From NCBI GenBank assembly GCA_026225565.1, contig JAMFTA010000078.1, positions 1 to 48,874 on the forward strand: a stretch of 48,874 nucleotides of DNA. Reading direction: 5' to 3'. Of this stretch, positions 4,736 to 47,062 are shown piece by piece. This stretch comes from Caulobacter sp. (GTDB taxonomy: Bacteria; Pseudomonadota; Alphaproteobacteria; Caulobacterales; Caulobacteraceae). The notes below the pieces were generated by a model. That model searched no databases, was not told the origin of the DNA, and saw nothing but the letters and a program-made list of their open reading frames with translations. The position numbers and the translations under genes were made by a program. The first letter of the stretch is position 1, and each line of letters starts with the position of its first letter.

Positions 4736-4757
4736 AATGCGCAAGGTGAATTTCATA
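4736..4757. promoter_or_regulatory. Operator-like element A (AATGCg-N10-TtCATa)
   Basis: Degenerate copy, 9 of 12 arm positions, of the AATGCA-N10-TGCATT palindrome; 67 bp upstream of the SMP-30 gene start. Confidence 0.45.
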
Positions 4758-4895
4758 TTGCGGGCGCGCCGGACAGGGAAATGCACGGTGCGCTTCGACA
4801 GGGAGCAGGCGTTCGGGGGTGTCGTCGCATAGGGCGGCAGCGGCCATCCCGCCTCTGCGAGCAAGCGGGGGATCTCGCGATCCGTCAGGCAAGTT

Positions 4896-5639
4896 TCAGG
4901 CGGCGGCCTTCGCGGACTTGGCGACCCGGGCGCGTTTCGCGACAGCAGGGCCGAAGCGGCCGAGAATGAAAAGCTCCACGCGCTCCTCGAGTTCGGCGTC
5001 CGTGGGCTGGGACGAGGACCAACCCGCGTAGACCAAGAGTGGCGTGGTCCCGAGGATGAGATCGACGAAGAGCGCAGCCGACTTTGCTGTATCGGTCTGA
5101 GGGGCGAGCTTGCGCTTCTCGAGCTCGCTGAACATGGACGCCACCGAGGCCCTGAAATAGGCGAAGGTCTTCTGGATCAGACGCATCATGAAATCAGGAA
5201 AGCGCTGGCTTTCAGCGATGGTCAGACGCATCAGGTTGACGGAGTGCGGGCGATAGGACACCTCGCAGACATAGCGAGCCACCTGCATCAGGCCGTCGAA
5301 AAGCGTCTCGCATTCCGCCAGCGAGTGGGGAAGGAACACAGCGCCGCTCTTGCGGGCCGTCACGACCTCAATGAACAGCGCTTCCTTGTCGCCGAAGTGT
5401 TGGTAGAGCGTGCGAGTCGCCACCCCGGCGGCCTTGGCGACGTCGACGAGCGAAGTCGCCGCATATCCGTTGTGAACGAAGAGGTCGGTGGCGACCTCCA
5501 TCACCTTGGCCTTGCGCCGTTCGAGTTCGTCCAGCGTCGGACGTCCTGCTTTTTGGGCCTTCCTCTGCCCTGTCTTGCGTCCATAGGGCCTGGAGCGACC
5601 AGCGCCGCGGGTGCTGCTGAGCTGAGACTGAGGCTTCAT
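4896..5639 (-). CDS. TetR-family transcriptional regulator (paralogue 2)
   Basis: Predicted 247-residue TetR repressor, closely related along its whole length to the protein at 2834-3640. Both share AGRPTL.ELERRKAKVM, GYAATSLVD, AKAAGVATRTLYQHFGDKEA and a C-terminal lysine/alanine tail. The ATG at 5639 is preferred over a GTG at 5642; GGAAG precedes it. A well-conserved copy of the 22-bp palindrome (5661-5682) sits 21 bp upstream, the usual place for autoregulation. Because the same palindrome occurs upstream of most operons here, this protein and its paralogue are the leading candidates for the cluster's repressor (inference). Confidence 0.9.
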   Translation of the reverse strand: MKPQSQLSSTRGAGRSRPYGRKTGQRKAQKAGRPTLDELERRKAKVMEVATDLFVHNGYAATSLVDVAKAAGVATRTLYQHFGDKEALFIEVVTARKSGAVFLPHSLAECETLFDGLMQVARYVCEVSYRPHSVNLMRLTIAESQRFPDFMMRLIQKTFAYFRASVASMFSELEKRKLAPQTDTAKSAALFVDLILGTTPLLVYAGWSSSQPTDAELEERVELFILGRFGPAVAKRARVAKSAKAAA

Positions 5640-5660
5640 CACGCTTCCCGAAGAACATTC

Positions 5661-5682
5661 AATGCAGCAACCTTATTGCAAG
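5661..5682. promoter_or_regulatory. Operator-like element B (AATGCA-N10-TGCAag)
   Basis: 10 of 12 arm positions match the shared palindrome. It lies 21 bp before the start of the TetR gene that ends at 4896, consistent with autoregulation. Confidence 0.65.
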
Positions 5683-5824
5683 TAGCGCGCCAGGGAAATT
5701 GGGATTTTCAGCCGGCTTCGTAAGAGCGGGGATCGCCTGAATATTCAGCAGGTCGACAAATCGTGCTTGCGCGATCCGACATCTGAACTGGAGCACCGTC
5801 GAATCCCTGCTCGATTCGTATTGT

Positions 5825-7006
5825 TCAGGCGGCGCGCGGCAGTCCGGGCCGGCAGGGTAGGGTGTCCATGCCCCGCACATTGGAGAGCACCTTCCGCGTC
5901 CCCCGCTCGGTGAAGATCTCGAACGCCGGGAAGCGCAAGAGCAGTTCCTCGAACGCCACACGAATTTCCAGGCGGGCCAGATGGATGCCGAGGCAGCGGT
6001 GGATGCCGTATCCAAAATAGATCGACACCACGTCATTCTCGCGGCTTACGTCGAAAACGTCGGGCGCTTCGAACCGGCGCTCGTCGCGCGTGGCGGCGCC
6101 GGTCAATAACATCACCTTGACGTCTTTGGGGATGGTCACGCCACGCAGCATCACTTCGCGTGTGGTGGTGCGCCCTTGCAGCTGGGAAGGCGGGTCGAAA
6201 CGCATGATCTCCTCCACCGCATTCGGGATGCGCGTGGGATCCGTCAAAAGCTTCTCGCGCTCGGACGGAAAGGCCTGGAGCGCCATGGCGCCGTTGGGGA
6301 TGGCCTTCGCGACTGTCTCGTGTCCGGCGGTGGCGAGCTCCATGAACCGGGCCGCAAGCTCGTCGTCGGTCAGCCTGCGCACGACGCCTTCGTCGTCCTC
6401 GAGCTCGGCGTTGATCAGGAGGGTGATCACGTCCTCACGCGGGCGCGCGCGGCGGTTGCGGATCAAATCGAGGTAGACCTCATCGGCCGTGAGTTTGGCC
6501 TGATAGACCTGCATGAGATCCACGTCGCCACGGGAGAGAAGGAGATTGGCGAAGTGATGAATATCGCCCCGAACTTCCTCGGGAATGCCGATCAGCTCGC
6601 TGATGACGTTCAGGGGAAGCTGAACCGCGAAATCCTTGACGAAATCGAACTCATCCTTTTCCGCCGCCTCTGTGAGCGTCTTGGCGCACCGATCGCGAAC
6701 GAAGGCCTCCATTCCGTTCATGCGATCGCGGGTGAAGACCTTGGTGACGAGATTCTTGTGCCAGCGGTGTTCGGGATTGTCCTTCATGATCAGGAGCCCA
6801 ATGTCTGGCATCGGCTCAATCATCACGCCGCCGGCGCTGGAGAAGGTCTCGTTGTCCTGGTGCGCCGCGACGACGTCCGCATAGCGCGACAAGGCCCAGA
6901 AGTTCAGCCCCTCATGGAAGTACACGGGCGCCTCGTCGCGCAACGCCTTGTAGACTGAGTAGGGGTTGTTGGCGAACTCGATCGAGTAGGGGTCGAAATC
7001 GATCAT
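5825..7006 (-). CDS. Cytochrome P450 (bacterial class I type)
   Basis: A 393-residue soluble P450. All core motifs are visible: I-helix AGHET (residues 227-231, with the acid-threonine pair for O2 activation), K-helix EEIMR (265-269) and the heme loop FGYGIHRCLG with ligand Cys338. The frame is open to 7099, but the ATG at 7006 has AGGA 5 bp upstream and gives the usual P450 N-terminus MIDFDPYS. Electrons probably come from the 2Fe-2S ferredoxin at 19641-19961; no ferredoxin reductase gene lies in the window. Likely role: hydroxylation of the growth substrate (inference). A shared operator-like element (7104-7125) is upstream. Confidence 0.95.
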   Translation of the reverse strand: MIDFDPYSIEFANNPYSVYKALRDEAPVYFHEGLNFWALSRYADVVAAHQDNETFSSAGGVMIEPMPDIGLLIMKDNPEHRWHKNLVTKVFTRDRMNGMEAFVRDRCAKTLTEAAEKDEFDFVKDFAVQLPLNVISELIGIPEEVRGDIHHFANLLLSRGDVDLMQVYQAKLTADEVYLDLIRNRRARPREDVITLLINAELEDDEGVVRRLTDDELAARFMELATAGHETVAKAIPNGAMALQAFPSEREKLLTDPTRIPNAVEEIMRFDPPSQLQGRTTTREVMLRGVTIPKDVKVMLLTGAATRDERRFEAPDVFDVSRENDVVSIYFGYGIHRCLGIHLARLEIRVAFEELLLRFPAFEIFTERGTRKVLSNVRGMDTLPCRPGLPRAA

Positions 7007-7103
7007 CTGTCCTGGCGCCCTTGCCTGTCGCCGGGCGCACACGGCGTCCGCTTCCAACAGGACCGTCCTTGCCGATCCGGCAGGTAAATGCAAGCTCATC
7101 GAT

Positions 7104-7125
7104 AATGCGCCTGGGTCAATTCATT
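7104..7125. promoter_or_regulatory. Operator-like element C (AATGCg-N10-TtCATT)
   Basis: 10 of 12 arm positions match; the outer arms extend to ATAATG and CATTAT. It lies between the divergent P450 gene (start 7006) and the NTF2-like gene (start 7292) and could control both. Confidence 0.6.
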
Positions 7126-8767: not shown

Positions 8768-9640
8768 TCAGCCGTCGGCCTTTGGACGCTCCGGCACCTT
8801 AGCGAGGCCGGGAACGTTGGTCGGATCCATGCCCCAGCCGTACACGCGGAAGTTCTGAGTGTGGCAGAGATGGTGGAGGGAGAAGGCGGCGTCGATGGCG
8901 GTGGCCTGGCCCTGGATGTCGAGGGTCTTGTTGATGGCTTCCTTGGTCATCTTCAGGGCGAAGGCGGGCTTGGCTGCGATCTTCCGGGCCATCGCCAAAG
9001 TGAAGTCTGCGAGCTGGTCGAGCTGTACCACGTGGTTGACCATGCCGAGACGCCAAGCCTCCTCGGCGCTCCACGTGTCGGACGTGAACAGGAACTCTTT
9101 CGCCTTACGCGCGCCGAGCTCCCAGGGATGGGCGAGCCATTCGACGCCCGAGACGCCGAAGGTCACGACCGGATCGGAAAAGACCGCGTTGTTCGCAGCG
9201 ATGATGAGATCGCAGACCCAGGGAAAGATCAGGGCCCCGGCGATGCATTTACCCTGAACCGCGCAGATCGTCGGTTTGGCGATGTTGCGCCAGCGCCTAG
9301 CGGTCTCGAGATAGCCCTCCTTTTCGGCGGCGTACCATCCGTGGGTGGCTTCTTCCTGGAAACCGCTCCAGTGGCCGACCTTGCGCGGATGGGCCTGCAT
9401 TGCGGCCATGTACTCCTCCACCGTCCCGGCTATGTCGTGGCCGGCAGAGAAATTCCGTCCGTCCGCGGCGAGGATGATCACCTTGATCGCATCGTCGTAG
9501 AGGGCGCGATTGAAGGCGTCGTTCATGTCGAAGATCATTTGCGGGTCGATGGCGTTGTGCTTTTCGGAACGCGCCAGGACAATGCGGGCGATGCCCGTCT
9601 CGGGCTGCTCGTAACGGACGGTGGGGGCGGCGTCGGTCAT
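8768..9640 (-). CDS. Crotonase-superfamily protein lacking the hydratase glutamates (copy 1)
   Basis: A 290-residue crotonase fold protein. The oxyanion-hole segment NFSAGHDI and the CIAGALIFPWVCDLIIA stretch are clear. At the two positions where enoyl-CoA hydratases carry catalytic glutamates (GGGCEL and FGQPE in typical members) it has hydrophobic residues (IF and FSDPV). It shares the unusual segment GVEWLAHPWEL with the second crotonase at 15984-16874 (GVEYWAHPFEL). It is therefore probably not a standard hydratase; hydrolysis, isomerisation or C-C cleavage of a CoA ester are options. It overlaps the upstream CoA ligase by ATGA, so translation is coupled. Confidence 0.85.
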   Translation of the reverse strand: MTDAAPTVRYEQPETGIARIVLARSEKHNAIDPQMIFDMNDAFNRALYDDAIKVIILAADGRNFSAGHDIAGTVEEYMAAMQAHPRKVGHWSGFQEEATHGWYAAEKEGYLETARRWRNIAKPTICAVQGKCIAGALIFPWVCDLIIAANNAVFSDPVVTFGVSGVEWLAHPWELGARKAKEFLFTSDTWSAEEAWRLGMVNHVVQLDQLADFTLAMARKIAAKPAFALKMTKEAINKTLDIQGQATAIDAAFSLHHLCHTQNFRVYGWGMDPTNVPGLAKVPERPKADG

Positions 9641-11298
9641 GACATCTCTACTTTGGCGAGGGCGTGGGCCTGACGGCGGAGCTCGTCCTTCCGAACCTTC
9701 CCGGAAGGAACACGCGGAAGGTCGTCGACGATGACGAGGCGCTCAGGAAACTTCTGCTTGGCCAGCCCTGACTCGGTCAGAAAGCGCTGCATTTCGGGAA
9801 GATCGAGCGCAGCCCCGCGTCTAAGCATCACGAAGGCGCAGCCGGCTTCGCCCGTTGTCGGGCTCGGCATGGCAACGATGGCCACCTCGGCGATCGCGAG
9901 ATGATTGAACAGTACGTCCTCCACCTCCTTGGGACTTATGTTCTCGCCCGAGCGAATGATGATATCCTTCTTACGCCCAGTAATGACAAGATAGTCGCGA
10001 TACACACGGCGGCCGAGGTCGCCGGTCCGGAAGAAGCCATCGGCGGCGAAAGCGCCCTCGTTGTCCTCCGGGTGCAGGTAGCCCACGAAAAGGCTGGGCC
10101 CGAGCCCCAGGATCTCGCCCTCGGCGCCCTCAGCCACCGGGGTGTCCCCGGCGGGATCGACGAGCCGGAGCTCTGTTGGTGCGAGGATCTCCCCGTCGGT
10201 CTCCGCGCCCATCTCGGACTGGCTCAGGCTGCGGATGCCGGCGGTCGCCAGAGTATGCTCGGTCGAGCCGTAAGCCCGGAAGAAGAGGCAGTGCGGAAAG
10301 GCCCGCGACGCGGCGCGAATGAGGTCGGGCGAGACCGTGGTGCCGCCGCAGAAGAACAGGCGCAGGGTGTCGAGCGCGTTCGGCCTTGCGCCGCCTACGT
10401 CGAGTAGCTGCTGCAGGAAGGGTGTAGCGCCGCCACTCACGGTGCAGCGGTTGTTCTCGATCAGGCTGATGGCTTCGTTCGGCGACCAGATGTCGACGAG
10501 GACGCTCGTGCATCCACGAACCCAGGGCATGTCGAAGGCCCAGAAGGCACCCGTGATGTGCGTGACGGGAGAGGGCATGAACACGACGTCCCTGGGACCG
10601 ATGCTCCAAATTTCGCCCATGTCGCGCACGCGAAAGTCGAAGGTGTGGTGGGTGTGAAGAACGCCTTTCGGCCGGCCCGTTGTTCCCGACGTGTACATGA
10701 CCATCATCACGCCCGCCGCCTCGACCCTGGGGAGGCTCGACTCCAGTGCGGGCTCATGGGCGAGGGCTTCGGCGTAGGCGTTGCCTACGCCCGCCTTTCC
10801 CCTTACGACCACGACGTCACGAAGGGCCGGGAGCGCCCCCTTCAGACGCTGGATCATCGCGGCGTGGTCATGCTTGCGGAACACGTCAGGGACAAAGATC
10901 AGCTTCGCGCCGCAATCCTTGAGAATATAGCCCATCTCGGCTTCCCGGTAGATCGGGGGGATCGGGTTGACGATCAGGCCGGCCATTCGGGCGGCGAGGG
11001 CTATGACAGCGGTCTCGATCCAATTTGGCAGCTGGAAGGAGACGACGTCCCCTGCCTTGAGCCCCTGGGCGCGAAAGAAGGCGACCAGACGCAGGGCGTC
11101 GTCCCAGACCTGCCGTCGGGAGACCCTTTTTTTTCCTTCGATCAGAAGCGCACGATCGGGATCTTCGCGAAGGGCCGACCTCGCCGCATCCACCAGGGTC
11201 GTCTCGCGCCAGTAGCCTGCCGCCGAGTAGCGCTGCGCCATCTCCTCCGACCAGCGGACCACGAATCCGCTAGGGTCTGTTCGCAAGCTCCAGCTCAT
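9637..11298 (-). CDS. AMP-forming acyl-CoA ligase (ANL superfamily)
   Basis: A 553-residue acyl/aryl-CoA synthetase that would activate a carboxylate with ATP and CoA. The P-loop YTSGTTGRPKGV, the A5-type motif YGSTE, the A7 region FRTGDLGRR, the hinge ITGRKKDIIIRSGENISPKE and the C-terminal A10 lysine (PSGKVRKDELR) are all present, so the enzyme looks active. The frame is open to 11412, but the ATG at 11298 has GGAGG 4 bp upstream. It is the first gene of an operon with the downstream crotonase and cyclase-family hydrolase. An operator-like element lies at 11376-11397. Confidence 0.92.
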   Translation of the reverse strand: MSWSLRTDPSGFVVRWSEEMAQRYSAAGYWRETTLVDAARSALREDPDRALLIEGKKRVSRRQVWDDALRLVAFFRAQGLKAGDVVSFQLPNWIETAVIALAARMAGLIVNPIPPIYREAEMGYILKDCGAKLIFVPDVFRKHDHAAMIQRLKGALPALRDVVVVRGKAGVGNAYAEALAHEPALESSLPRVEAAGVMMVMYTSGTTGRPKGVLHTHHTFDFRVRDMGEIWSIGPRDVVFMPSPVTHITGAFWAFDMPWVRGCTSVLVDIWSPNEAISLIENNRCTVSGGATPFLQQLLDVGGARPNALDTLRLFFCGGTTVSPDLIRAASRAFPHCLFFRAYGSTEHTLATAGIRSLSQSEMGAETDGEILAPTELRLVDPAGDTPVAEGAEGEILGLGPSLFVGYLHPEDNEGAFAADGFFRTGDLGRRVYRDYLVITGRKKDIIIRSGENISPKEVEDVLFNHLAIAEVAIVAMPSPTTGEAGCAFVMLRRGAALDLPEMQRFLTESGLAKQKFPERLVIVDDLPRVPSGKVRKDELRRQAHALAKVEMS

Positions 11299-11375
11299 CG
11301 ACCCTCCGTCAAGGCGCATGTTTCCGTCGGCGCCGCGGCAGCTGCAGCACGGGACACTATGCGTGCGCATCCGGT

Positions 11376-11397
11376 AATGGCAACTACGCATTTCATT
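11376..11397. promoter_or_regulatory. Operator-like element D (AATGgc-N10-TtCATT)
   Basis: 9 of 12 arm positions match, with the outer arms TAATG and CATTA perfect. It is 77 bp upstream of the CoA ligase start at 11298. Confidence 0.5.
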
Positions 11398-11592
11398 AAT
11401 TTGCGGGGCCACCCCTTAGGGTGCTCTGCGCTCGAGAATCGCGGACACTCAGGCGATGGCCTGCTTAGGGCCCTCCTTGAGGCGGCGGGGATCGATGACC
11501 TCAAGGTCAACGGGGGCTCCACATCCGGCGGCGAGGATCAGCCCTAGAGGTCTGTGCGAGACGCCTCGTTGCGCGTTCCGCGGTTCTATAAG

Positions 11593-11614
11593 AATGCAAC
11601 AAAGGAATTCTATT
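11593..11614. promoter_or_regulatory. Operator-like element E (AATGCA-N10-TcTATT)
   Basis: 10 of 12 arm positions match the shared palindrome; it is upstream of the plus-strand operon that starts with the BVMO gene. Confidence 0.6.
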
Positions 11615-11749
11615 AAACTGTCAAGCGTGCTTGTCAATCCGGGGCGGCGCCCGCTCGATCGCAACGCTGGACGAGGGTGGGCGAGAGGCGGGGGCATGCC
11701 CCGGACGCCCCAGCCTTGCGCCCTGGGTCGACGCTGGCGCGGTATTGTA

Positions 11750-11769
11750 TTGCACATGCTGATGTGCAA
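11750..11769. repeat. Perfect 8-bp inverted repeat (TTGCACAT/ATGTGCAA, 4-base loop)
   Basis: Arms 11750-11757 and 11762-11769. It could be a regulator site or, in the BVMO leader transcript, a hairpin. It differs in spacing from the 22-bp element. Confidence 0.5.
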
Positions 11770-11872
11770 AGAGCGATCCGTAGTGGAGGGTGTTCCGGCC
11801 GCCACGACCGAGCGGGCGCCCGTTCGCGCCGCCCCCCGGCCCGGCTCACGACAGGTGAGGGCCATTCTTGCG

Positions 11873-18044: not shown

Positions 18045-18046
18045 CC

Positions 18047-21469: not shown

Positions 21470-21491
21470 AATGCAAGGGGTGAGTTGCATT
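21470..21491. promoter_or_regulatory. Operator-like element F (perfect AATGCA-N10-TGCATT)
   Basis: All 12 arm positions match, and the arms extend to TAATGCA/TGCATTA. It is central between the divergent ACAD and esterase operons. One of the two perfect copies. Confidence 0.8.
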
Positions 21492-25496: not shown

Positions 25497-25500
25497 GTCA

Positions 25501-28622: not shown

Positions 28623-28644
28623 AATGCTTCTCGTGCGTTGCAAA
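28623..28644. promoter_or_regulatory. Operator-like element I (AATGCt-N10-TGCAaa)
   Basis: 9 of 12 arm positions match; same form as element O. It is 85 bp upstream of the BVMO start at 28537. Confidence 0.5.
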
Positions 28645-31926: not shown

Positions 31927-31948
31927 AATGCAACGGCTGTGGTGTATT
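31927..31948. promoter_or_regulatory. Operator-like element J (AATGCA-N10-TGtATT)
   Basis: 11 of 12 arm positions match. It lies just upstream of the P450 gene, in the divergent region shared with the aldolase gene. Confidence 0.68.
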
Positions 31949-32049: not shown

Positions 32050-32071
32050 AATGCATGCTTATCGTTGCATT
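32050..32071. promoter_or_regulatory. Operator-like element K (perfect AATGCA-N10-TGCATT) within a promoter-like spacer
   Basis: All 12 arm positions match and the arms extend to 8 bp (ATAATGCA/TGCATTAT). On the plus strand TTGATA (32045-32050) and CATTAT (32068-32073) are 17 bp apart, like -35 and -10 boxes, so the element fills the spacer of the likely aldolase promoter. Confidence 0.8.
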
Positions 32072-32953: not shown

Positions 32954-32975
32954 AATGCTCGTGAGGGATTGCATT
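32954..32975. promoter_or_regulatory. Operator-like element L (AATGCt-N10-TGCATT)
   Basis: 11 of 12 arm positions match. Its right arm is also part of a second exact repeat TTGCAT-N6-ATGCAA (32969-32986), giving three half-sites upstream of the ACAD at 33027. Confidence 0.68.
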
Positions 32976-33026
32976 TTTGGATGCAAACTCTAGAACGCGG
33001 GGTGGGTGAGCAGCCGAAGGTCCGAG

Positions 33027-34037
33027 ATGCCTGACGATATGACGGCGCAGGGAGTTCGCTCGACATTCCTCACGTTCACGTCGGAAGAAAACGGGATCAT
33101 GAACGCGGCGGCCGGCCTCGCCGCCGATTTGCTGCCGATCGAGCGGCTGCACGGTCTGGGGGCTTTCGACCTGACGCCCGCTGCTCGCGCGACCCTGGGG
33201 GAGCTTGGCTGGTTCGCCCTTTCGCTGCCCGAGCAGTTCGGCGGCTCAGCCCTGTCTGCCGTAGAGCAGGCGTTGTTCTTCCGGGAGATGGGCCGCCAGT
33301 GCGCGCCCATCGACATTCTCGCCCAATCCCTTGCCGTACATGTCGCGACCGAGAATACGGTCCTGCGCAGGAGGCTGCTCGGCGGCGCCTGCTCCGTCGC
33401 TTTAGCCGAGCCGGCGGGCGGGGGGGTGCGCCTGGTGGGCGGCGCCGACGCCGAGTTCGCCCTGCTCGCCGATCCGCAAGGGGCTGGTCTCTACGCTCTC
33501 GCGGGGCTCGCGCCCGAGACCCGGCCTGGGCTCGATCCGGCCACGACGCTTCGCATCATCTCGAGCCTGGCCGATCCGGTAGCGCAGCTGGATACGGCGA
33601 CAGTGTGGGAGTTCGGTCAGCTGAGCGTTGCTGCTATGCTCGTCGGGGTTGCGGAGGCGGCCCTCGACCTGATCGTGGAATACGCAAAGGTGCGCGAGAC
33701 CTTCGGGCGGAAGATCGGCGCCTACCAGGCCGTGCGCCATCCCTGCGCCGACATGGCCGTGCGCGTCGAAGCGGCGCGATCCCAGCTCTGGTACGCGGCG
33801 GCAGCTTTGAAGGCGGGCCGTGGTGATGCACGCACTCACTTGATCGCCGCCAAGCATCTTGCCAACGAGGCGGCCTTGGCGAACGCCGACACCAACATTC
33901 AGCTCCACGGTGGGATCGGAGTCACGGACGAGCACCACGCGCACCTGCTGCTCAAACGCGCCCTTCTTCTTGGCCGGTTGTTTGGAGCGAAGCGCACCCT
34001 TCTGGCGGAACTTCTTCACGCTAGGATCGAAGACTAG
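33027..34037 (+). CDS. Acyl-CoA dehydrogenase, small/divergent type
   Basis: A 336-residue ACAD of the shortened class. The N-terminal helical domain (LGELGWFALSLPEQFGGSAL) and C-terminal domain (YAKVRETFGRKIGAYQAVRH; NIQLHGGIGVTDEHHAHLLL) are recognisable, while the SEPxAGSD loop of the middle domain is missing. These features fit the non-catalytic partner of a heteromeric ACAD; the large-type ACAD at 20144-21322 has no adjacent partner and is a candidate. The ATG at 33027 follows GAAGG. Confidence 0.88.
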   Translation: MPDDMTAQGVRSTFLTFTSEENGIMNAAAGLAADLLPIERLHGLGAFDLTPAARATLGELGWFALSLPEQFGGSALSAVEQALFFREMGRQCAPIDILAQSLAVHVATENTVLRRRLLGGACSVALAEPAGGGVRLVGGADAEFALLADPQGAGLYALAGLAPETRPGLDPATTLRIISSLADPVAQLDTATVWEFGQLSVAAMLVGVAEAALDLIVEYAKVRETFGRKIGAYQAVRHPCADMAVRVEAARSQLWYAAAALKAGRGDARTHLIAAKHLANEAALANADTNIQLHGGIGVTDEHHAHLLLKRALLLGRLFGAKRTLLAELLHARIED

Positions 34038-35501: not shown

Positions 35502-35523
35502 AATGCATGGGCGGCGTTGCAAA
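35502..35523. promoter_or_regulatory. Operator-like element M (AATGCA-N10-TGCAaa)
   Basis: 10 of 12 arm positions match; 56 bp upstream of the KstD-like gene. Confidence 0.62.
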
Positions 35524-39945: not shown

Positions 39946-40238
39946 GACCTTCGGAAGTGGGGGAAGGGAGGAAATACGATCTTGGGGCGAGGGCGCAGGA
40001 GCAGCGCCGTCCATCCAGGGCGTCCATACCGTGAATTTGATTAAATTCAATGGCTCGGTGTCATTAGAATTAAATAGCCTGGATCGGATGTTCAGCAGTC
40101 GGGACCTAGGGGCCGAAGGGCAGGAGGACGGCCCGCGGGGTCGATCATCGCGAAGATGTTTCGCGCGCATTGGCGGATGGCGCGCAGCCGGCTATCAAAC
40201 GCTATAGGTCCGTTGCAATAATCAAATGGAGACGCACG
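39946..40238. promoter_or_regulatory. Leader region of the Rieske oxygenase gene
   Basis: AT-richer, non-coding stretch. It holds element N at 40198-40219 and a second degenerate match AATtCA-N10-gtCATT at 40044-40065 (9 of 12). Confidence 0.4.
40198..40219. promoter_or_regulatory. Operator-like element N (AAcGCt-N10-TGCAaT)
   Basis: 9 of 12 arm positions match. It is 19 bp before the Rieske oxygenase start at 40239. Confidence 0.45.
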
Positions 40239-41633
40239 ATGGGGCAAACTTTCCCGGCGCCGAAGACGGGTGAAGTTCCGTTCAAGGTCACCCATCCCAA
40301 GCGCATCCCCGCGCAACGGTACTATGACCAGACCTTTTCCGAGCTTGAGCGCGAGCTGTTGTGGCCGCGGGTTTGGCAGATGGCGTGCCGCCTGGAGGAG
40401 ATCCCCGAGGTGGGCGACTGGGTCGAGTACAAGAATCTCGACAAGTCGGTCATCGTCGTCCGCACCAAGGCGGGAGTGAAGGCTTTTCACAACGCCTGCC
40501 GCCACCGTGGCGTCAAGCTCGCCGACGGCCATGGCAGCTGCGAGGTTCAGGGCTTCCAGTGCCCATTCCACGGCTGGCGCTGGAGCATCGACGGCGAGAA
40601 CACCTTCGTCTTCGGCCGCCATCTCTTCGACCAGGAGGATCTCGATCCGACGGAGATTGACCTGAAGCCCTGCCGCGTTGAGTTCTGGGGCGGCTGCGCC
40701 TTCATCAACTTCGACGATCACGCATCGCCGCTGCTCGAGACCTTGAAGCCGGTGGCCGACGCGCTCGACCCGAGGCATGCGGACAAGCTCCGGGTGGAAT
40801 GGTGGAGCTCGGCTATTCTGCCGACCAACTGGAAGCTGGCGATGGAAGCCTTCATGGAAGGCTATCACGTCATGCGCACCCATCCGCAGCTGCAGGCCGT
40901 GAACTTGCCGCTCCCAGGCTATGACCGTTATTCCGCGCCGCCGGACGCGACGGGCCCATCGTTGGGCTCGCTCACGACGCGCAAGCTCGTCGAAATGTTC
41001 ATCCAATACAACGCTGTGCTGAGCGAAGGCATGGCCGGCATGGTTCACGCCAACGACGTGGCGATCATGAACGACCTCAAGGACAAGGTGCAGCTGGCCG
41101 ACGATCCGCAGGTCGGGTTTATGCAGTGGTACGGGCTGCTCAACGAGGAGATCACCAAGTGCAACCGCGCGCGCGGCGTCGACTTCCCGGACCTGAACAC
41201 GACGCCACTCGCCTCGCCGGTGCAGTTCGTGTTTCCGCACTACTTCCTGCTGCCGATGTTCGGCAACATGGCCTCCTATCGAATCCGGCCGTTGACCGCC
41301 GAGACCTGTCTGTTTGAGATCTGGTCGTTGGTGCTCTACCCTGAAGGCGAGGCGCGCCCGCGCCCGACGGCGCCGGCTCCCATAGGCCACGACGACCCGC
41401 GTTTCCCGCCGATCCCTCAGCAGGACTACAGCAACCTGCCGCGCCAGCAGGAGGGGCTGCACGCCGGCGGCTTCGAATACATGCGCCTGACGCCCAAGGT
41501 CGAGGGCATGATCAGCAACTACCAGCGCGTGATCGACGGCTTTCTCGGCGGCGTCGACCAGGCCACGCTGACCAACGGCCTTGTGCTGGCCAGCGGCGGG
41601 TTCGATGCGCCGGTAAAGGACATCGGCTTCTAG
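40239..41633 (+). CDS. Rieske non-heme iron oxygenase, alpha subunit
   Basis: A 464-residue ring-hydroxylating oxygenase. The Rieske centre is C87-x-H89 (CRHRGV) and C108-x2-H111 (CPFHGW). The catalytic iron site appears as NWKLAMEAFMEGYHVMRTHP with His210 and His215. It activates O2 for mono- or dihydroxylation and needs a reductase and ferredoxin not encoded next to it. The ATG at 40239 follows GGAGAC; the frame is open to 40170. KshA, the Rieske partner of KstD in steroid ring opening, is shorter; equating the two would go beyond the sequence. The stop faces the convergent KstD-like gene with a 2-bp gap. Confidence 0.94.
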   Translation: MGQTFPAPKTGEVPFKVTHPKRIPAQRYYDQTFSELERELLWPRVWQMACRLEEIPEVGDWVEYKNLDKSVIVVRTKAGVKAFHNACRHRGVKLADGHGSCEVQGFQCPFHGWRWSIDGENTFVFGRHLFDQEDLDPTEIDLKPCRVEFWGGCAFINFDDHASPLLETLKPVADALDPRHADKLRVEWWSSAILPTNWKLAMEAFMEGYHVMRTHPQLQAVNLPLPGYDRYSAPPDATGPSLGSLTTRKLVEMFIQYNAVLSEGMAGMVHANDVAIMNDLKDKVQLADDPQVGFMQWYGLLNEEITKCNRARGVDFPDLNTTPLASPVQFVFPHYFLLPMFGNMASYRIRPLTAETCLFEIWSLVLYPEGEARPRPTAPAPIGHDDPRFPPIPQQDYSNLPRQQEGLHAGGFEYMRLTPKVEGMISNYQRVIDGFLGGVDQATLTNGLVLASGGFDAPVKDIGF

Positions 41634-41635
41634 GG

Positions 41636-43321
41636 TCAGACTCCGGCGAGGTTGCTGGCGTTCGCGGCGTGCTTGGCGGCGATATAGCCGAAGGCGAGGC
41701 CGGGCCCGACGCTGGCGCCCGCACCGGGGCTTCGGCCGCCCATCACCGCCGCCGTAGTGGTCCCCGTCGCATAGAGACCCGGAATCGGTGATCCATCCGC
41801 CTTCAGCACCCTGGCGTCAGCATCGGTGACGAGGCCGCCGAAGGTGCTGACATCGCCGGGGTAGATCGGAACGGCGTAGAAGGGGCCTTGCTCGAGCATC
41901 CCAAGGGTCTGGGCGGGCCCCTCGAGGGTCGGGTCCCCGAGCCAGCGATGATAGATCCAGTCGCCCCGGTGGAAGTCCTCATCCCGCCCATTCCGCACGG
42001 AGCCGTTGAACCGCTCGATGGTGTTCCTGAGAGCGAGCGGCGGCAGCCCGCAGGCGCGCGCCAAATCCTCGATCGTCTCGCCCTTGTGCAGGAAGCCCTG
42101 GTCGTACCATGACTGGGGCTTGGCCGAGCCCGCCATGGTGCCGAGGAACATGTAGTCGCGGACGAACTGGCTGTCGACGATCAGCCAGCTCGGGATGGCC
42201 AGCGCCGATTTGTGGCGCTCGCGCAGGCCACGGCCCAACTCAACGTAGGACTGAGCCTCGTTCATGAAGCGCCCACCGCTCTGGTCGACGAGGATGGCGT
42301 GCGGTTTGGCCATGTCGCCCTGTAGCATGGGCTTGATCGGGCCCGCGCCCGGCGGCACCGTGACCGGCTGGCCCACCGTCTCGCCCATCTGGCCCACGGC
42401 CGCCCCGATCCGAATGGCCTCGAGGATGATTTCCCCGGTGTCGCCGGGTGCGGTGTTGGTCCAATCCACCGAGGTGCCCGGGATGTAGCTGTCGCGCATG
42501 GCCTGATTGCGCGAGAAGCCGCCGGCGTTCAGCAGCACGCCGAGGCGGGCGGTGACCCGCCGCTCCGTGCCGTCGATCACGGCGCGCACGCCCACCACCC
42601 GCTCGCCGTCCGTGAGGAGCTGTTTCACCGGAGCGTTCAGACGCAGCTCGACGCCCGCCTTCAGGGCGGCGGCGAGCATCTGGCCCTGAAGCGCTGCGCC
42701 GCCGGTGACGTACTGCCTGCCTGTGAGCTTCGACAGCAGGATGCGAAACATCATCTTGGCCAAAACCAGCTTGGCCGCGTTGGATTTTTTGATCCACGGC
42801 AGGTGCATGGCCTCGTCGATGGTCACGGGGAAGGGCAGGAAGTTCGGCCTGAGCTTTGATTTCCACGGACCGAGCTTGCGCAGGTCGAATAGTTCCGACG
42901 TCACGGTCCGGCTGGCTTCCGAGGCGCCCGGGCGATCATAGTAGTCCGGCCAGGATGGCATCCGGCGCAGCCGCACGCCCTGGCCGACGAGGAAGTCGAG
43001 CATTCGGGGCGCTTCCTCGAGGTAGACCATGCGCCGCGCCCGTGTCGCGCCGGGTGCCGCAGCCTCGTCCTCCTGGAGTGCGTCGAGGTAAGTGGCGGCC
43101 TTCTCGGGAGTGTCCTTAGTCCCGGCCGCCGCCATGAAGCGGTTGTTGGGGATCCACATGACGCCGCCCGAGGTCGAGGTGGTGCCGCCCAGGAGCTCGG
43201 TCTTCTCGAGCACGACCACGCTCTTGCTCCGGGCCCGCATCATCAGAGCTGCGATCAGGGAGCCCGCGCCGCTCCCCACTATCACGAAGTCGAAGGTCTC
43301 GTCGGCTTCTGGCTTGCTCAT
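41636..43321 (-). CDS. KstD-like FAD-dependent dehydrogenase (intact copy)
   Basis: A 561-residue flavoprotein of the fumarate reductase/3-ketosteroid-delta1-dehydrogenase family. FAD motif GSGAGS (16-21), GGTTSTSGGVMWIPNNRFM, MPSWPDYYDRPG (candidate for the first active-site Tyr), SGGRFMNEAQSY and the C-terminal FAD segment DGSPIPGLYATGTTTAAVMG. In KstD enzymes a Tyr-Pro-Gly-x-Gly motif near the end supplies Tyr and Gly that hold the 3-keto group; here it reads SPGAG, with Ser for Tyr, so substrate or mechanism may differ. It is paralogous to the broken gene at 35580-37283. Element O is 57 bp upstream. Confidence 0.92.
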   Translation of the reverse strand: MSKPEADETFDFVIVGSGAGSLIAALMMRARSKSVVVLEKTELLGGTTSTSGGVMWIPNNRFMAAAGTKDTPEKAATYLDALQEDEAAAPGATRARRMVYLEEAPRMLDFLVGQGVRLRRMPSWPDYYDRPGASEASRTVTSELFDLRKLGPWKSKLRPNFLPFPVTIDEAMHLPWIKKSNAAKLVLAKMMFRILLSKLTGRQYVTGGAALQGQMLAAALKAGVELRLNAPVKQLLTDGERVVGVRAVIDGTERRVTARLGVLLNAGGFSRNQAMRDSYIPGTSVDWTNTAPGDTGEIILEAIRIGAAVGQMGETVGQPVTVPPGAGPIKPMLQGDMAKPHAILVDQSGGRFMNEAQSYVELGRGLRERHKSALAIPSWLIVDSQFVRDYMFLGTMAGSAKPQSWYDQGFLHKGETIEDLARACGLPPLALRNTIERFNGSVRNGRDEDFHRGDWIYHRWLGDPTLEGPAQTLGMLEQGPFYAVPIYPGDVSTFGGLVTDADARVLKADGSPIPGLYATGTTTAAVMGGRSPGAGASVGPGLAFGYIAAKHAANASNLAGV

Positions 43322-43378: not shown

Positions 43379-43400
43379 TTTGCAACGAGCTCGGAGCATT
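43379..43400. promoter_or_regulatory. Operator-like element O (minus orientation AATGCt-N10-TGCAaa)
   Basis: 9 of 12 arm positions match; same arm variants as element I. 57 bp upstream of the KstD-like gene start at 43321. Confidence 0.52.
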
Positions 43401-43478: not shown

Positions 43479-43889
43479 TTAGGATTTCCCGAATACGGGC
43501 AGCCGGAAGGCTCCTGTTTCGTCTTCGCAATCGATAAAAACCAGCCGCACTGGCAGGTCGAGCCTGGCCTCGCCCGGATCGAACTCATGCGGATTGGCGA
43601 TGAACGGCGTTCCCTCCTCGAGTTCGACGAGGATGGCGTCGTAGGGTAGGGGAAGCAGGCCATTGTAATAGTCGTTCATGAAGCGGCACCAGCTGATAAT
43701 CTTCGCGCGACCCGACATCCGCTCCCAAGTGAGCTTGGGGCTCGCGCAGTGCTCGCAGGCTTCGACGGGCGGCCAAGCGAGATGGCCGCAGGCCTGGCAG
43801 CGCTGGAGCCGGAGTTCTCCCTTCCCGCACCAGGTCCAGAATGCATCGTGGACCGGGCCTCGCACGCGATTAGGCCGTCTGTGCGTCAT
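43479..43889 (-). CDS. DUF35 OB-fold protein with zinc ribbon
   Basis: A 136-residue acyl-CoA-associated protein. The zinc ribbon is C31-x2-C34 and C45-x2-C48 (RCQACGHLAWPPVEACEHC), followed by the OB-fold domain ending VRLVFIDCEDETGAFRLPVF. DUF35 proteins partner SCP2-type thiolases and retro-aldolases (for example the Ltp2/ChsH2 DUF35 complex in steroid side-chain removal). The thiolase-like gene ends 2 bp upstream on the same strand, so a complex is very likely. Confidence 0.93.
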   Translation of the reverse strand: MTHRRPNRVRGPVHDAFWTWCGKGELRLQRCQACGHLAWPPVEACEHCASPKLTWERMSGRAKIISWCRFMNDYYNGLLPLPYDAILVELEEGTPFIANPHEFDPGEARLDLPVRLVFIDCEDETGAFRLPVFGKS

Positions 43890-43891
43890 CC

Positions 43892-45109
43892 CTAGCCTCC
43901 GCGCCGGAAGACAAGGCTATGGACCTGGTCGGTCTCGGCCAGAGAGAACATGGAGACCTCCACGTCGGCGATTTGACGGACGCCAGCCTCACGCCGCAGT
44001 TGGCGCGTGATCTCGGCGATGTGGCTCCAGCCGTGCATGTAGGAACCAGACAGCATGCCGCCGGCCACATTGACCGGAAGGGCGCCGCTCACAGCCATGG
44101 CTCCGCTCTTGCAGAACTCAAGCCCGGCGCCAGGCTCGACGAAACCGTAGCCCTCGACCTGGTTGATCAGATGGATTGTCGAGGCGTCATAGCCTTCGAA
44201 ATGCTGGATTTCGGAGAGGCCGACGCCGGCCATGGCGAAGGCCTCCTCGCCCGCGCGCCTGATTTGGGGCTGCAACCGCTCGCGCACGAGGGCGTGCAGT
44301 TTGTCGCTTGTCACCTTCGCCTTGCCCCAGCCCTCGACCTGCACGGGCGTATGGGGAAGATCGCGCGCCTTGTCGGTCCGCCTGACGATTAGGCACACGC
44401 CGCCGTCATTCACCAAGCAAAGGTCGAGCAGACGCAACGGCTGCACAATGTAGCGCGAGGCGAGATAATCAGCAATCGAAAGGGGCGTCTGCATCACGGA
44501 ATTTGGATTGGTTATGGCGTTCTTGCGAAGCTGGACCGCGACGGCACCAAGATCGGTCTCAGACGCGTTGTAGGTCGCCTGGTAGCGGCTCCAGATGAAG
44601 GCCCAGTGCGCGGCCTGGGAGCTCCAGCCCCACGGATGGTAGTAGTAATAGGAGGTGGGTGCGCCTCCGCCTGCAAAGCGGTAGCCGCCGTACTTGAGGC
44701 CAAGCGAGCGCGACGCCACGGCGTAGACCATGGCGACCGTATCGCACTCGCTGGCGGCGATCGCGGCGCTGACGATCGGCAACGGGTCGGTCATGATGCC
44801 GCCGCTCTCGAAGAGCCGCCGAGGCTGGAGGCCCAGCGCCGGCGCGAGCTCAGCCGCGTTGGGGCCGCCATAGAGGAAAGAGACCGAAAGGCCGTCGATG
44901 TCCTGACGCGCGAGGCCTGAGTCGGCGAGCGCGCGCTCGAAGGCGGTCTGGGCCAGGCTTTCGGCGGTGGGCGCCGCGTAGCCCGGCGGCTTCGCACGGG
45001 CGGCCTTGTAGTCCAGGTGGTAGTCGGTCTCGCCCACACCCACGATCGCAGCCGCGCCTCTGAGTTCCTGGACGGATGGCGGCATCTCCGAAGTATCAAG
45101 TTTTGACAT
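43892..45109 (-). CDS. SCP2-type thiolase-fold protein, probable retro-aldolase (Ltp2-like)
   Basis: A 405-residue lipid-transfer thiolase-family protein. It has AAIVGVGETDYH, FERALADSGLARQDIDGLSV, AMAGVGLSEIQHFEGYDAST and the C-terminal GGMLSGSYMHGWSHIAEITR. The nucleophilic cysteine of true thiolases is absent: the region reads RRLFESGGIMTD. This and the adjacent DUF35 gene are the marks of Ltp2-type retro-aldolases, which split a beta-hydroxyacyl-CoA side chain from a ring ketone; extension to this substrate is inference. The upstream gene is a CoA ligase, 19 bp away. Confidence 0.92.
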   Translation of the reverse strand: MSKLDTSEMPPSVQELRGAAAIVGVGETDYHLDYKAARAKPPGYAAPTAESLAQTAFERALADSGLARQDIDGLSVSFLYGGPNAAELAPALGLQPRRLFESGGIMTDPLPIVSAAIAASECDTVAMVYAVASRSLGLKYGGYRFAGGGAPTSYYYYHPWGWSSQAAHWAFIWSRYQATYNASETDLGAVAVQLRKNAITNPNSVMQTPLSIADYLASRYIVQPLRLLDLCLVNDGGVCLIVRRTDKARDLPHTPVQVEGWGKAKVTSDKLHALVRERLQPQIRRAGEEAFAMAGVGLSEIQHFEGYDASTIHLINQVEGYGFVEPGAGLEFCKSGAMAVSGALPVNVAGGMLSGSYMHGWSHIAEITRQLRREAGVRQIADVEVSMFSLAETDQVHSLVFRRGG

Positions 45110-45128
45110 GGGGGCTCCGGTCTAAGGT

Positions 45129-46628
45129 CTAGCGCTCACCGGCGGCGTCCCGCTCTTCGAACAGACGTTTGACGCCGCGCAGATCGATTTTGAATGACGG
45201 CGTCCTCGGCAGCTCATTGACAAAGGCCCACTTGACCGGGACATGGGTAGCGTAGACGCGATCGCGAAGGTGGGCTTCCAGTTCGGAGATCGAAGGAGTG
45301 GCAGAGCCCGACTTCAGTTGGATGGCTGCGGCCGGGCATTCGCCAAGCCGTTCATCCTTGACGCCCACGACGGAGGCCGCGGCTATGCAGTCGTGCACCA
45401 GCAGAGCGCGCTCGATCACATCCGGAAGGAGCTTGAAGCCGCCGCGCATGATCGCGCCGTCGGCGCGTCCGCAATGCCAGAGGAAACCTTCCGCATCGAT
45501 CCGCGCGATGTCGCTGGTCCGGATCCAGTCAGGTCCGATCCGCGGCGAGATTACTTCGAGCAATCCCTCTTGGTCGGGCGGTAGTTCCTCTCCCGACTCG
45601 AGATCGACGATTCTCAATTTCGAGCCGGCGAAGGGGCGTCCGACACTACCGAGCTTCTTCTGGCCGAACCGGGCGTAGAGATCCGGCGTCATAAAGGTGA
45701 CGGGCCCGCCGAACTCGGTGGCGCCGTAGGAGAGGAGGATCGGAATCCCATAGGTGTCTTCGAAGGCGCGGTGCACGGTGGGATCCAGCGGCGCGGCGCC
45801 GGTCACGACGACCTTGATCCCGGCCAGCTCAGCCTTCGGAACCTTGGCGTCCAAGACCATGCGAACTCCAGCAGGCGGCATGGACGCGGATTGCGGCTTG
45901 TGACGGCGCACATAGTCGAGCCAGCCGTCCACGTTGAACCGGTCTAGCAGCACGGCGCGAGCGCCACTGAGCAGGGGTGGGAGCACCGAATAGACGCCGG
46001 ACACATTCCCGAGTGGAAAATAGAGCAGGGGGGGAGGAGCCTGTACGCCCGCCGATCCCGCCTTCTGGCTGATGTCCGCCCCCACTATGTGTTTGAAGAT
46101 CAGGTCGTAGCTGAAATCCACATGTTTTGGCGGGCCTGTCGTGCCGCTGGTCAGGATCTTGATATGCGGGGGATCGTCGGTCTGCGGCGAGGTGGGCGAA
46201 GGCTGGCGGCCACGAGCCTCCGACGCCTCTTCCACTGCAAGGCCTTCGAGGATAACGCCGACCTGACCGGTCGCCCTGATGGCTTCCTGGACCTCTGGAC
46301 TGAGATCTTCGCGGTGCATGATCACGGCGTCGAGCCGATGCTTTCCGAGATCGCGCACGATGCCTGCGGGCGATTGAAATGCATAGATCATCACGATGGT
46401 CCGACCTCGCGCCAGAAGGCCGAGTTCGGTAGCGATCGCCGAGGGCCGGTTGCGTGGAACAAAACCGATCGCGGCGTTGGACGGGACCCTCGCCGCGTCC
46501 AGCAAAGCGTCCACCTGGTCAACGACCTTCCGCAATTCGCCCCAGGTGTGCCACCGTCCATCATACTCGATGGCTTCCGCAGTGGCGCTTTGCGCCAGGG
46601 CGTTTTCACAGGCTTCCTGGAGGGTCAT
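45129..46628 (-). CDS. AMP-forming acyl-CoA ligase (ANL superfamily), copy 2
   Basis: A 499-residue ANL ligase that would CoA-activate the acid used by the downstream retro-aldolase. It has the P-loop ILTSGTTGPPKHVDFS (His where most have Gly), the A5 motif YGATEFGGP, IRTSDIARIDAEGFLWHCGR and an A10 region TPSFKIDLRGVKRLF that keeps the lysine but has Phe for the usual Gly before it. The ATG at 46628 is chosen because the ANL homology begins there (MTLQEACENALAQS) and it overlaps the stop of a 60-codon frame by ATGA. The frame stays open to 46895 with no recognisable sequence. Confidence 0.88.
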   Translation of the reverse strand: MTLQEACENALAQSATAEAIEYDGRWHTWGELRKVVDQVDALLDAARVPSNAAIGFVPRNRPSAIATELGLLARGRTIVMIYAFQSPAGIVRDLGKHRLDAVIMHREDLSPEVQEAIRATGQVGVILEGLAVEEASEARGRQPSPTSPQTDDPPHIKILTSGTTGPPKHVDFSYDLIFKHIVGADISQKAGSAGVQAPPPLLYFPLGNVSGVYSVLPPLLSGARAVLLDRFNVDGWLDYVRRHKPQSASMPPAGVRMVLDAKVPKAELAGIKVVVTGAAPLDPTVHRAFEDTYGIPILLSYGATEFGGPVTFMTPDLYARFGQKKLGSVGRPFAGSKLRIVDLESGEELPPDQEGLLEVISPRIGPDWIRTSDIARIDAEGFLWHCGRADGAIMRGGFKLLPDVIERALLVHDCIAAASVVGVKDERLGECPAAAIQLKSGSATPSISELEAHLRDRVYATHVPVKWAFVNELPRTPSFKIDLRGVKRLFEERDAAGER

Positions 46629-46807
46629 GGGTTCGTATGTGGGCTGGTTTTCAGCGCCCGCGCAATGGACGACAAGCACAGGAAAGGCCGGGCCAGATCG
46701 CAATCGTCCGGATTGTCCCAGCGCACCGGATCGGTGGGATTCCATCGCGCGGATTCCTCGGTCACCGCCTCGATGAGGTATCGGTCCGCCTTGGGGGCTT
46801 CGGTCAT
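46625..46807 (-). CDS. Possible 60-residue small protein coupled to the CoA ligase
   Basis: Starts at ATG 46807 (MTEAPKADRYLIEAVTEESA) and ends at the TGA that overlaps the CoA ligase start. It is acidic, then has a WNPTDPVRWDNPDD segment and a Leu/Ser-rich end. No known family was recognised. The overlap with the next start favours a real upstream gene; the lack of a clear ribosome-binding site speaks against it. It may be a truncated gene. Confidence 0.4.
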   Translation of the reverse strand: MTEAPKADRYLIEAVTEESARWNPTDPVRWDNPDDCDLARPFLCLSSIARALKTSPHTNP

Positions 46808-46895
46808 GGTGTCTGCTTACTTTGGGGCAGGGCGCGGCCTGAGTCGGGAGGCCTTGCCTTAAAAGGCGACGAAGGCGTCGGAGCGATGCGATCAT

Positions 46896-47062
46896 GGGTG
46901 GGCCGGGTCATGTCTTGTTCCGCTGGCAGCGCTCGCGCGACCCTAAATTCGAAATAGAATATATATTTATCGGATAATTGACGGGCATGGACCTAAATGC
47001 AATGAGCGACATATAATAATTTGCCATGGCGGCAATTGCCACGGCGTTCTTGGAAACGGCTG
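46896..47062. promoter_or_regulatory. Divergent AT-rich promoter region before the aldehyde dehydrogenase
   Basis: The stretch 46951-47025 is unusually AT-rich (GAATATATATTTATC). At 46996-47017 AATGCA-N10-TatAaT matches 9 of 12 arm positions of the shared palindrome, 45 bp before the ALDH start. Confidence 0.4.

Follow-up and report, generated by a model that had tools for sequence, protein, structure and literature searches.

A palindrome with fixed spacing heads nearly all transcription units of a catabolic island in Caulobacter sp. and is a candidate operator of two paralogous TetR-family proteins

Genes of the catabolic island

The stretch of DNA analysed here (the window) is the whole 48,874 bp contig JAMFTA010000078.1 (C181) of Caulobacter sp. 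assembly GCA_026225565.1, which makes up 1.3% of the DNA of a 3.69 Mb genome in 242 contigs. It carries an island of catabolic genes in which a 22-bp palindrome, AATGCA-N10-TGCATT, lies before scattered transcription units. Comparison of the sites, the adjoining genes, and their counterparts in other genomes suggests that this palindrome probably serves as the common switch of a degradation programme that is conserved and as yet unstudied, with two TetR-family proteins of the same island, TetR_A and TetR_B, as candidate regulators.

Comparisons with Pfam, NCBIfam, and PDB revealed that the island encodes two P450s, a Baeyer–Villiger-type monooxygenase (BVMO), a second flavin monooxygenase, a GMC oxidoreductase, and a Rieske oxygenase. 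The genes related to CoA metabolism include those for two AMP-binding CoA ligases, an ATP-grasp CoA ligase, four acyl-CoA dehydrogenases (ACAD1 to ACAD4), and two enoyl-CoA hydratases (ECHa and ECHb). Two KstD-like flavoproteins, an HpcH-type aldolase, and a ChsH2-like/Ltp2-like pair, for which the closest structure is 6ok1, are also encoded, and the remaining genes code for amidohydrolases, a gluconolactonase-like protein, hydrolases, dehydrogenases, and three TetR regulators. None of the matches listed for the 20 scanned proteins reached the NCBIfam cut-off, and no KshA_C match at 1e-10 was found in the own genome. The gene set resembles one that degrades an alicyclic compound of steroid- or terpenoid-like type, and it is from this likeness that we infer the substrate.

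P450a is encoded at 5825..7099 on the minus strand, and CoA ligase a, an AMP-binding enzyme (9637..11412, minus strand), heads a unit with ECHa and a cyclase gene; both were assigned by Pfam, as were BVMO and the Rieske ring-hydroxylating oxygenase (40170..41633, plus strand). The BVMO coordinates (11456..13870, plus strand) are those of the longest open reading frame (ORF), and the true start is probably further in; solved relatives found in the PDB comparison include OTEMO, cyclohexanone monooxygenase, and steroid monooxygenase. ACAD3 (20144..21322, minus strand) stands alone in the window, and in all seven other loci it lies directly behind ACAD4. For ACAD4 itself (33006..34037, plus strand) the best NCBIfam match was IpdE2, far below the cut-off. 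KstDb (41636..43321, minus strand) is 3-ketosteroid-1-dehydrogenase-like, with a PDB match to 7p18 at 9.6e-89, and the ChsH2-like OB protein and Ltp2-like thiolase (43479..45109, minus strand) form a side-chain aldolase-like pair according to Pfam and the match to 6ok1 (4e-44). In the first KstD-like gene (35580-37283), an in-frame TAG at 36603-36605 separates two abutting ORFs, which match FAD_binding_2 positions 1-247 and 272-414; this could be a broken gene, an assembly error, or a case of read-through.

The preliminary description of this DNA, made from the sequence alone, had mentioned two TetR proteins, whereas three TetR genes were found with Pfam. TetR_B, the candidate regulator (4896..5642, minus strand), and its paralogue TetR_A, a candidate co-regulator (2834..3640, minus strand), match TetR_N (PF00440) at 8.6e-16 and 3.6e-16, respectively, above the gathering score, and carry, as the divergent C-terminal ligand/dimer domain of the family, the AefR-like TetR_C_7 (1.6e-10 and 5.5e-9, respectively). 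Judged by these domains, both are TetR-family transcription factors. The third protein, TetR_C, is encoded at 25411..26145 on the plus strand.

Palindromic sites in the window

All 16 of the 22-mers in the preliminary description are present where it placed them and with the number of arm matches it gave: 12/12 at 21470 and 32050; 11/12 at 31927 and 32954; 10/12 at 5661, 7104, 11593, and 35502; 9/12 at 4736, 11376, 28623, 40198, 43379, and 46996; and 8/12 at 21586 and 23697. Sites absent from that list were detected at 23662 (10/12) and at 7189, 11749, and 40044 (9/12 each), and six more unlisted 9/12 matches, at 1428, 9380, 39401, 43840, 44474, and 44488, lie inside genes. The statement that all sites fall outside coding sequence did not hold, as those at 11376, 11593, 31927, and 40198 are located within the longest possible ORF, close to its 5' end.

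Chance expectation was derived from 200 local dinucleotide simulations of the window. Two sites with 12/12 matches were observed against 0 expected, four with at least 11/12 against 0.02, and nine with at least 10/12 against 0.99, the simulation maximum being 4. At lower thresholds the numbers approach chance, with 25 versus 10.2 for at least 9/12 and 82 versus 75.8 for at least 8/12. The claim that such recurrence is unlikely by chance is thus upheld for sites with at least 10/12 matches, is mixed for 9/12 matches, and fails for 8/12 matches; since the latter are at chance level, the 8/12 sites carry no weight by match count alone. In a scan of gaps from 2 to 20 nt, the window contained nine sites with at least 10/12 matches at N10 versus 0–5 at other gaps, and four with at least 11/12 matches at N10 versus none at any other gap.

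A motif-blind count of 4+4 dyads in 9.8 kb of non-coding DNA of the window, with ORF starts trimmed by 150 bp, placed AATG-N12-TGCA first (7 versus 0.17 expected), above the Bonferroni threshold and above the best of 10 simulations. The dyad TAAT-N16-ATTA suggests arms slightly longer than 6 nt. When symmetric dyads were counted by spacing without regard to sequence, N10 did not stand out among the gaps, so that the letters of the arms are needed for recognition of the motif. Promoter geometry was likewise uninformative: the AAT of the arm by itself largely accounts for the -10-like signal seen at offset -3, and therefore no claim is made from it.

A position weight matrix was built from 44 distinct sites of other genomes, with no window site used. 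When applied to the window, this external matrix identified 13 sites with scores of at least 14 (0.23 expected) and 21 with scores of at least 10 (1.5 expected), nearly all of them at unit heads. Position 7 of the half-site avoids G, a feature that played no part in site selection, and the consensus is AATGCAH-N8-DTGCATT.

Predicted operators and the units they head

Sites found with the external matrix head nearly every transcription unit of the window, in line with the proposal, well supported overall, that the palindrome ties the scattered units into one regulon. The highest score, 25.6, was obtained for the perfect site at 21470..21491, located between ACAD3 on the minus strand and an alpha/beta hydrolase gene on the plus strand and accompanied by a weaker partner at 21586-21607 (8/12, score 11.9). 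The other perfect site (32050..32071, score 23.0) precedes the plus-strand gene of the HpcH-type aldolase and is 123 bp from the site at 31927..31948 (11/12, score 20.7), which occupies the 5' end of the minus-strand P450b ORF. Another 11/12 site, at 32954..32975 (score 19.0), lies 31 bp before the plus-strand gene ACAD4, the orthologues of which in other genomes have a conserved site upstream.

Two divergent gene pairs have several predicted operators. The region between P450a (minus strand) and a SnoaL-like gene (plus strand) contains sites at 7104..7125 (10/12, score 18.8) and 7189-7210 (9/12, score 16.0), and that between CoA ligase a (minus strand) and BVMO (plus strand) contains one at 11593..11614 (10/12, score 17.3) with 9/12 companions at 11376-11397 and 11749-11770 (scores 14.8 and 14.1). 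The site at 23662..23683 (10/12, score 15.9) is 41 bp before an amidohydrolase-3 ORF, which is followed by TetR_C; that at 35502..35523 (10/12, score 14.7) is 57 bp before the split KstD-like gene; and that at 28623..28644 (9/12, score 14.0) is 86 bp before the minus-strand gene of flavin monooxygenase FMO2. The Rieske oxygenase ORF is preceded at 105 bp by a site at 40044..40065 (9/12, score 15.2), with a weaker partner at 40198-40219 (score 11.7). Two weak sites (9/12, score 11.1 each) were found at 43379..43400, 58 bp before KstDb on the minus strand, and at 46996..47017, between CoA ligase b (minus strand) and an aldehyde dehydrogenase gene (plus strand).

As for the candidate regulators, a site at 5661..5682 (10/12, score 11.9) lies 19 bp before TetR_B, pointing to possible autoregulation. 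TetR_A has a site only via the preceding gene, the SMP-30/gluconolactonase (SGL) gene, 29 bp before which is the site at 4736..4757 (9/12, score 15.8).

In the own genome, this contig contains 9 of the 30 sites with at most two mismatches (binomial P 1.4e-10) and 4 of the 5 sites with at most one mismatch (binomial P 1.5e-7). The genome-wide scan proposed in the preliminary description gave a divided result here: the strong sites of the window head operons, and those outside it, 20 of 21 of which were inspected, behave like chance. Nine of these 20 are deep in genes, including the sole other site with at most one mismatch, and eight are near a gene start, which is about the chance level, as 41% of random positions in other loci fall in this class.

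On C190 (L023, 1200-3800), a 4 kb contig of the own genome, a TonB-receptor ORF lies 8 bp from a 10/12 site. This ORF has a TonB plug domain and extends past the fetched stretch, and a hydrolase encoded opposite to it is 38% identical to that of the island. To judge from this gene content, C190 is probably another piece of the regulon.

The palindrome in other genomes

A scan of species genomes with the alignment of TetR_A and TetR_B revealed 21 loci at 49–67% identity, labelled Novosphingobium, Sphingomonas, Sphingomonadaceae, Caulobacteraceae, Brevundimonas, and, in one case, Pseudomonadota, together with 16 further matches, of which 15 are distant and one is close but partial. Around the 21 homologues (349 kb), 20 sites with at least 11/12 matches were found at N10, the counts at each of the remaining gaps between 2 and 20 being 0–3; L066-L081, the 16 further loci from that scan, contained no N10 site of this quality. 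The regulon had been called local; on the contrary, orthologous genes near homologous TetR genes in other members of the Sphingomonadaceae and Caulobacteraceae carry this palindrome at identical spacing.

Twenty comparison genomes were chosen for a TetR homologue 49–67% identical. Because these genomes were selected by TetR and some are close relatives, their sites are not all independent. Sites with at most one mismatch number 166 in total, each of the 20 genomes having two or more, and the site density is 57 per Mb near the TetR gene versus 2 per Mb elsewhere, i.e., a 29-fold enrichment. Among 79 Novosphingobium genomes, the 7 with the TetR homologue average 10.0 sites and the 72 lacking it average 2.7 (P 1.7e-4); ACAD4 co-occurs with TetR in the same set, being present in 5 of 7 versus 2 of 72 (P 2e-5). 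Only 10 sites altogether were found in 35 genomes of the window's family that have no close TetR homologue. In 24 genomes of other families in the order (G036-G059), where the best TetR_B match was 26% identical (2.6e-17), there were 0 to 13 sites each, and base composition may account for these counts.

Position of the sites relative to orthologous genes

In 39 loci, 43 of the 45 sites with at least 11/12 matches lie upstream of a gene, a generous class into which 41% of random positions also fall. L053 and L057 were left out of this count and of the orthologue counts below, as they overlap L082/L083 and L089, respectively, and L082-L101 were chosen around sites among the matches listed rather than from all 166. 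Of the 43 upstream sites, 26 precede the ORF start by 0–100 bp, 12 reach at most 150 bp into the longest ORF at its 5' end, and 5 are farther away.

The last distribution bears on the mode of action. TetR_A and TetR_B could bind these sites and activate transcription, or repress and activate according to position, and some sites more than 100 bp upstream of a gene, together with several promoters having two sites 50–155 bp apart, could fit activation or looping; such paired sites could also allow cooperative binding. The 26 sites at 0–100 bp and the 12 overlapping 5' ends are where repressors act, and repression by binding over the promoter is the usual mode of TetR proteins, according to the accessible part of PMC12882949. 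Activation is therefore considered improbable, and repression is preferred in what follows.

Orthologues that head units often have a site: ACAD4 in 8/8 cases, the Rieske oxygenase in 4/5, the cyclase in 3/5, SnoaL in 2/2, the ATP-grasp CoA ligase in 2/4, KstDb in 2/4, and ECHa in 2/5. None was found before the 25 operon-internal orthologues (ACAD3 0/7, ligase a 0/6, ECHb 0/4, ACAD1 0/4, and ACAD2 0/4), 22 of which are within 26 bp of the preceding neighbour, the other three, all ligase a, being 0.7–1.1 kb behind it on the same strand. In these counts the matrix was partly trained on the same loci, the KstDa and KstDb rows represent the same genes, and the TetR of L082 is counted twice; operon order was read from the order of tblastn matches, as overlapping ORF calls limited a mechanical ORF test to a partial answer. 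Sites also precede the ACAD4 orthologues of G064 and G102, and the orthologue in G127, cut 141 bp upstream, has none. BVMO scored 0/3 by the start of the orthologue match, because the over-long ORF of the window misplaces the start; by ORF start, all three have a site at the 5' end.

The same genes may gain or lose a site with their place in the operon. ACAD3 and ligase a, which in the window head their own units and are not behind ACAD4, each have a site there, and the ATP-grasp ligase gene is without a site where it adjoins BVMO (L087 and L089) and has one in L048, where it does not. Sites at genes that head their own units but not inside operons are, in our view, the strongest sign of selection for regulation, and operators appearing where a gene becomes the head of its own unit provide a clean natural example of regulon rewiring.

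Other genes next to sites extend the predicted regulon. Of the seven neighbours of 741–872 aa, the six scanned all proved to be TonB-dependent receptors; a neighbour of 680 aa is an old-yellow-enzyme-type reductase. KshA-like Rieske genes lie downstream of sites in several genomes. Loci were obtained for 30 of 46 KshA_C matches, three of which (L109, L110, and L118) were excluded for too little upstream sequence; matrix hits of at least 12 were found for 9 of 21 usable low-scoring KshA-like genes versus none of the six usable KshA_C genes with high scores (>140 bits), which are probably canonical KshA. The idea of a canonical steroid 9,10-seco core regulon was dropped because none of these six genes has such a hit.

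In N. malaysiense (L084), a gene with an IclR-type helix-turn-helix (HTH) at 17410-18207 lies 163 bp behind a 10/12 site, and the encoded regulator may itself be a target of the regulon.

The TetR_A/TetR_B subfamily

TetR_A and TetR_B are 71% identical over the match, with 49 of 56 identical residues in the HTH and 97 of 139 in the C-terminal part. Among 23 homologues, mean identity was 81% for the HTH and 54% for the C-terminal part, and 22 of them share an identical recognition-helix stretch, GVATRTLYQHFGDKE, the other having one L to I replacement. Two paralogues with nearly identical HTH sequences in one island make two-signal control possible.

Homologues of TetR_A/B occur in all 20 comparison genomes, 19 having one close homologue and G070 two; G068 has an extra distant one (31%). 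This presence is circular, since the genomes were selected through TetR_A/B. Independent support is provided by the site density around the gene, the contrast between genomes with and lacking TetR, the conserved HTH, and the sites before TetR genes: 10 of the 21 homologue genes have a matrix hit at their own promoter at P≤0.03, with N10 beating other gaps (TetR_B of the window, P 0.03), and by another definition of the start 7 of 21 reach a score of 12. An inverted repeat of constant spacing ahead of its target operons, as observed here, is a feature of TetR-type regulons; a site at the regulator's own promoter is frequent in them and is not obligatory.

In 59 relatives the best TetR_B match was 26% identical (9.5e-18), and short HTH-only matches reached 44% among the matches listed. 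All 552 plasmid records matching TetR_B were below 60% identity, and those among the 20 matches listed were at 27–34%. A metagenome-assembled genome labelled Verrucomicrobiia (L066) contains a partial TetR_A/B homologue at 56–61% identity, which could be due to contamination or transfer. In PDB, 19 sequences match TetR_B at 1e-6, the best being 3bhq.

Proposed regulation and its alternatives

We consider it likely, from these sequence comparisons, that AATGCAH-N8-DTGCATT is the operator of TetR_A/TetR_B, whose homologues would read the same site, and that these proteins control an alicyclic-compound catabolic regulon. The TetR_A/TetR_B pair would read the palindrome in the island, as its homologues would in Sphingomonadaceae and Caulobacteraceae, and the regulon would comprise scattered catabolic units for an alicyclic, steroid- or terpenoid-like compound plus TonB-dependent uptake. 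One dimer, or two, would bind physically to the palindrome just upstream of each gene and block transcription. Since the position of the sites and the TetR family suggest repression, we infer that a compound of the pathway, possibly an acyl-CoA intermediate, would release the repressor and so relieve this repression. In some genomes the regulator would also limit its own expression.

Several observations weigh against this assignment. When the arms were set 11 nt apart (N11 control), 80 sites were found in the 20 genomes versus 166 at N10, so that the genome-wide excess is only about two-fold and, of the sites with at most one mismatch across the genomes, roughly half are background; per genome, N10 was higher in 16, equal in 1, and lower in 3 (Wilcoxon P 3e-4). 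Eleven of the 21 TetR genes (L045, L047, L048, L049, L050, L052, L056, L057, L059, L061, and L065), including the nearest homologue, L045, have no significant upstream site, and some of those with a site are identical by descent. No site was found before orthologues of several genes that have one in the window, namely SGL (0/8), alpha/beta hydrolase (0/4), FMO2 (0/2), and HpcH, P450b, and amidohydrolase-3b (0/1 each). Sites also occur apart from the regulator: no TetR_A/B homologue matches at 1e-12 in G146 or G131, where 10 and 8 sites, respectively, have at most one mismatch, and the fragmented assembly G102 keeps two sites before ACAD4 and has no close TetR homologue (best 31%).

A control with the reversed pattern (166 versus 4) offered a misleading contrast and was replaced by the N11 control.

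The high background could be taken to mean that the palindrome is an artefact of chance or base composition in AT-rich intergenic DNA, in line with the chance-level frequency of 8/12 matches in the window. For the strong sites this is already contradicted by the spacing specificity, the external matrix, the placement at unit heads with operon-internal negatives, and the conservation before orthologues, and we regard such an origin as extremely improbable.

The sites found without a close TetR homologue in G102, G146, and G131 would be expected if another transcription factor, e.g., of the IclR or LysR family, read the palindrome, the TetR pair being merely part of the island and the regulon. 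The 10/12 site before the IclR-type gene of N. malaysiense is compatible with this, and an IclR repressor, PheR, is known in sphingomonad catabolism from the part of PMC13273656 available. Against it, the three TetRs are the only regulators that Pfam named among the scanned proteins of the window, the sites are enriched 29-fold around TetR, and the HTH is conserved together with the motif, which makes a different reader unlikely. Still less credible is TetR_C as the general reader: it is located in the island behind amidohydrolase-3, the promoter of which has a site, and has homologues in some genomes (1e-20 matches in 9 of 20, one at only 27% identity), but it was undetected at this threshold in the other 11, some of which have a clear excess of N10 over N11 sites (G065, 7 versus 1; G074, 10 versus 4; G077, 13 versus 4).

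With TetR_A/TetR_B retained as the predicted readers, a more far-reaching version can be offered tentatively, as a possibility somewhat short of even. The system might be an undescribed alphaproteobacterial regulon, a functional counterpart of the KstR regulon, that moves between genomes as operators plus TetR. In the lineage of the window, duplicated TetRs with nearly identical DNA-reading heads and diverged ligand domains would compete for about 14–20 sites and integrate two signals, and the regulon might govern the uptake and breakdown of a polycyclic compound outside the canonical KshA steroid route.

The motif provides one sequence handle that joins scattered P450, BVMO, acyl-CoA dehydrogenase, KstD-like, Rieske, and TonB-receptor genes into a co-regulated programme hosted by environmental sphingomonads and Caulobacteraceae. 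It names a candidate regulator and predicts co-induced genes, and therefore narrows the search for the substrate.

Comparison with known systems

The palindrome had been called undescribed, and no paper describing it was found in searches of an open-licence library; the portions available of PMC8700777, PMC9736018, PMC12239570, PMC13273656, and PMC12882949 give other operators or none.

KstR and KstR2 are TetR repressors of cholesterol catabolism in actinobacteria, as stated in the accessible part of PMC8700777. The system proposed here resembles them in having a TetR-family protein, many scattered operons of steroid type for ring and side chain, one shared palindrome, and autoregulation in some genomes, and differs in that KstR and KstR2 belong to the actinobacterial phylum and that TonB receptors belong to the regulon here. 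The KstR/KstR2 operator differs from AATGCA-N10-TGCATT. KstR structures are present in PDB, and no KstR-named entry was among the 19 PDB sequences matching TetR_B at 1e-6.

Nearer relatives of the hosts provide further parallels. EdcR of Caenibius tardaugens, an estrogen-responsive TetR repressor of two catabolic operons, is likewise a sphingomonad TetR controlling steroid-catabolic operons via a palindrome near the -10 box; however, as far as described in the available part of PMC8700777, its operator is TnnCnnTACnAnTnGTAnnGnnA and its domain TetR_C_11, versus AATGCA-N10-TGCATT and TetR_C_7 here. In the bsd I bile-salt side-chain cluster of the same species, the TetR gene EGO55_16300 adjoins genes for an amidohydrolase, a two-subunit acyl-CoA dehydrogenase, a CoA ligase, and an alpha/beta hydrolase, like part of the island, but the palindromes proposed in the accessible text, ATAGGGCCATTG and GCATGCGGGATGC, are unlike the island motif (PMC12882949). 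PheR of Sphingobium SHPJ-2 is also a sphingomonad repressor, the deletion of which raises the expression of catabolic and TonB-uptake genes; it differs in belonging to the IclR family and in its core, GCAACG, with no N10 palindrome seen in the portion of PMC13273656 available. A TetR regulon for catabolism is thus a known kind of system, while the operator, the regulator subfamily, and the gene set described here appear to be new.

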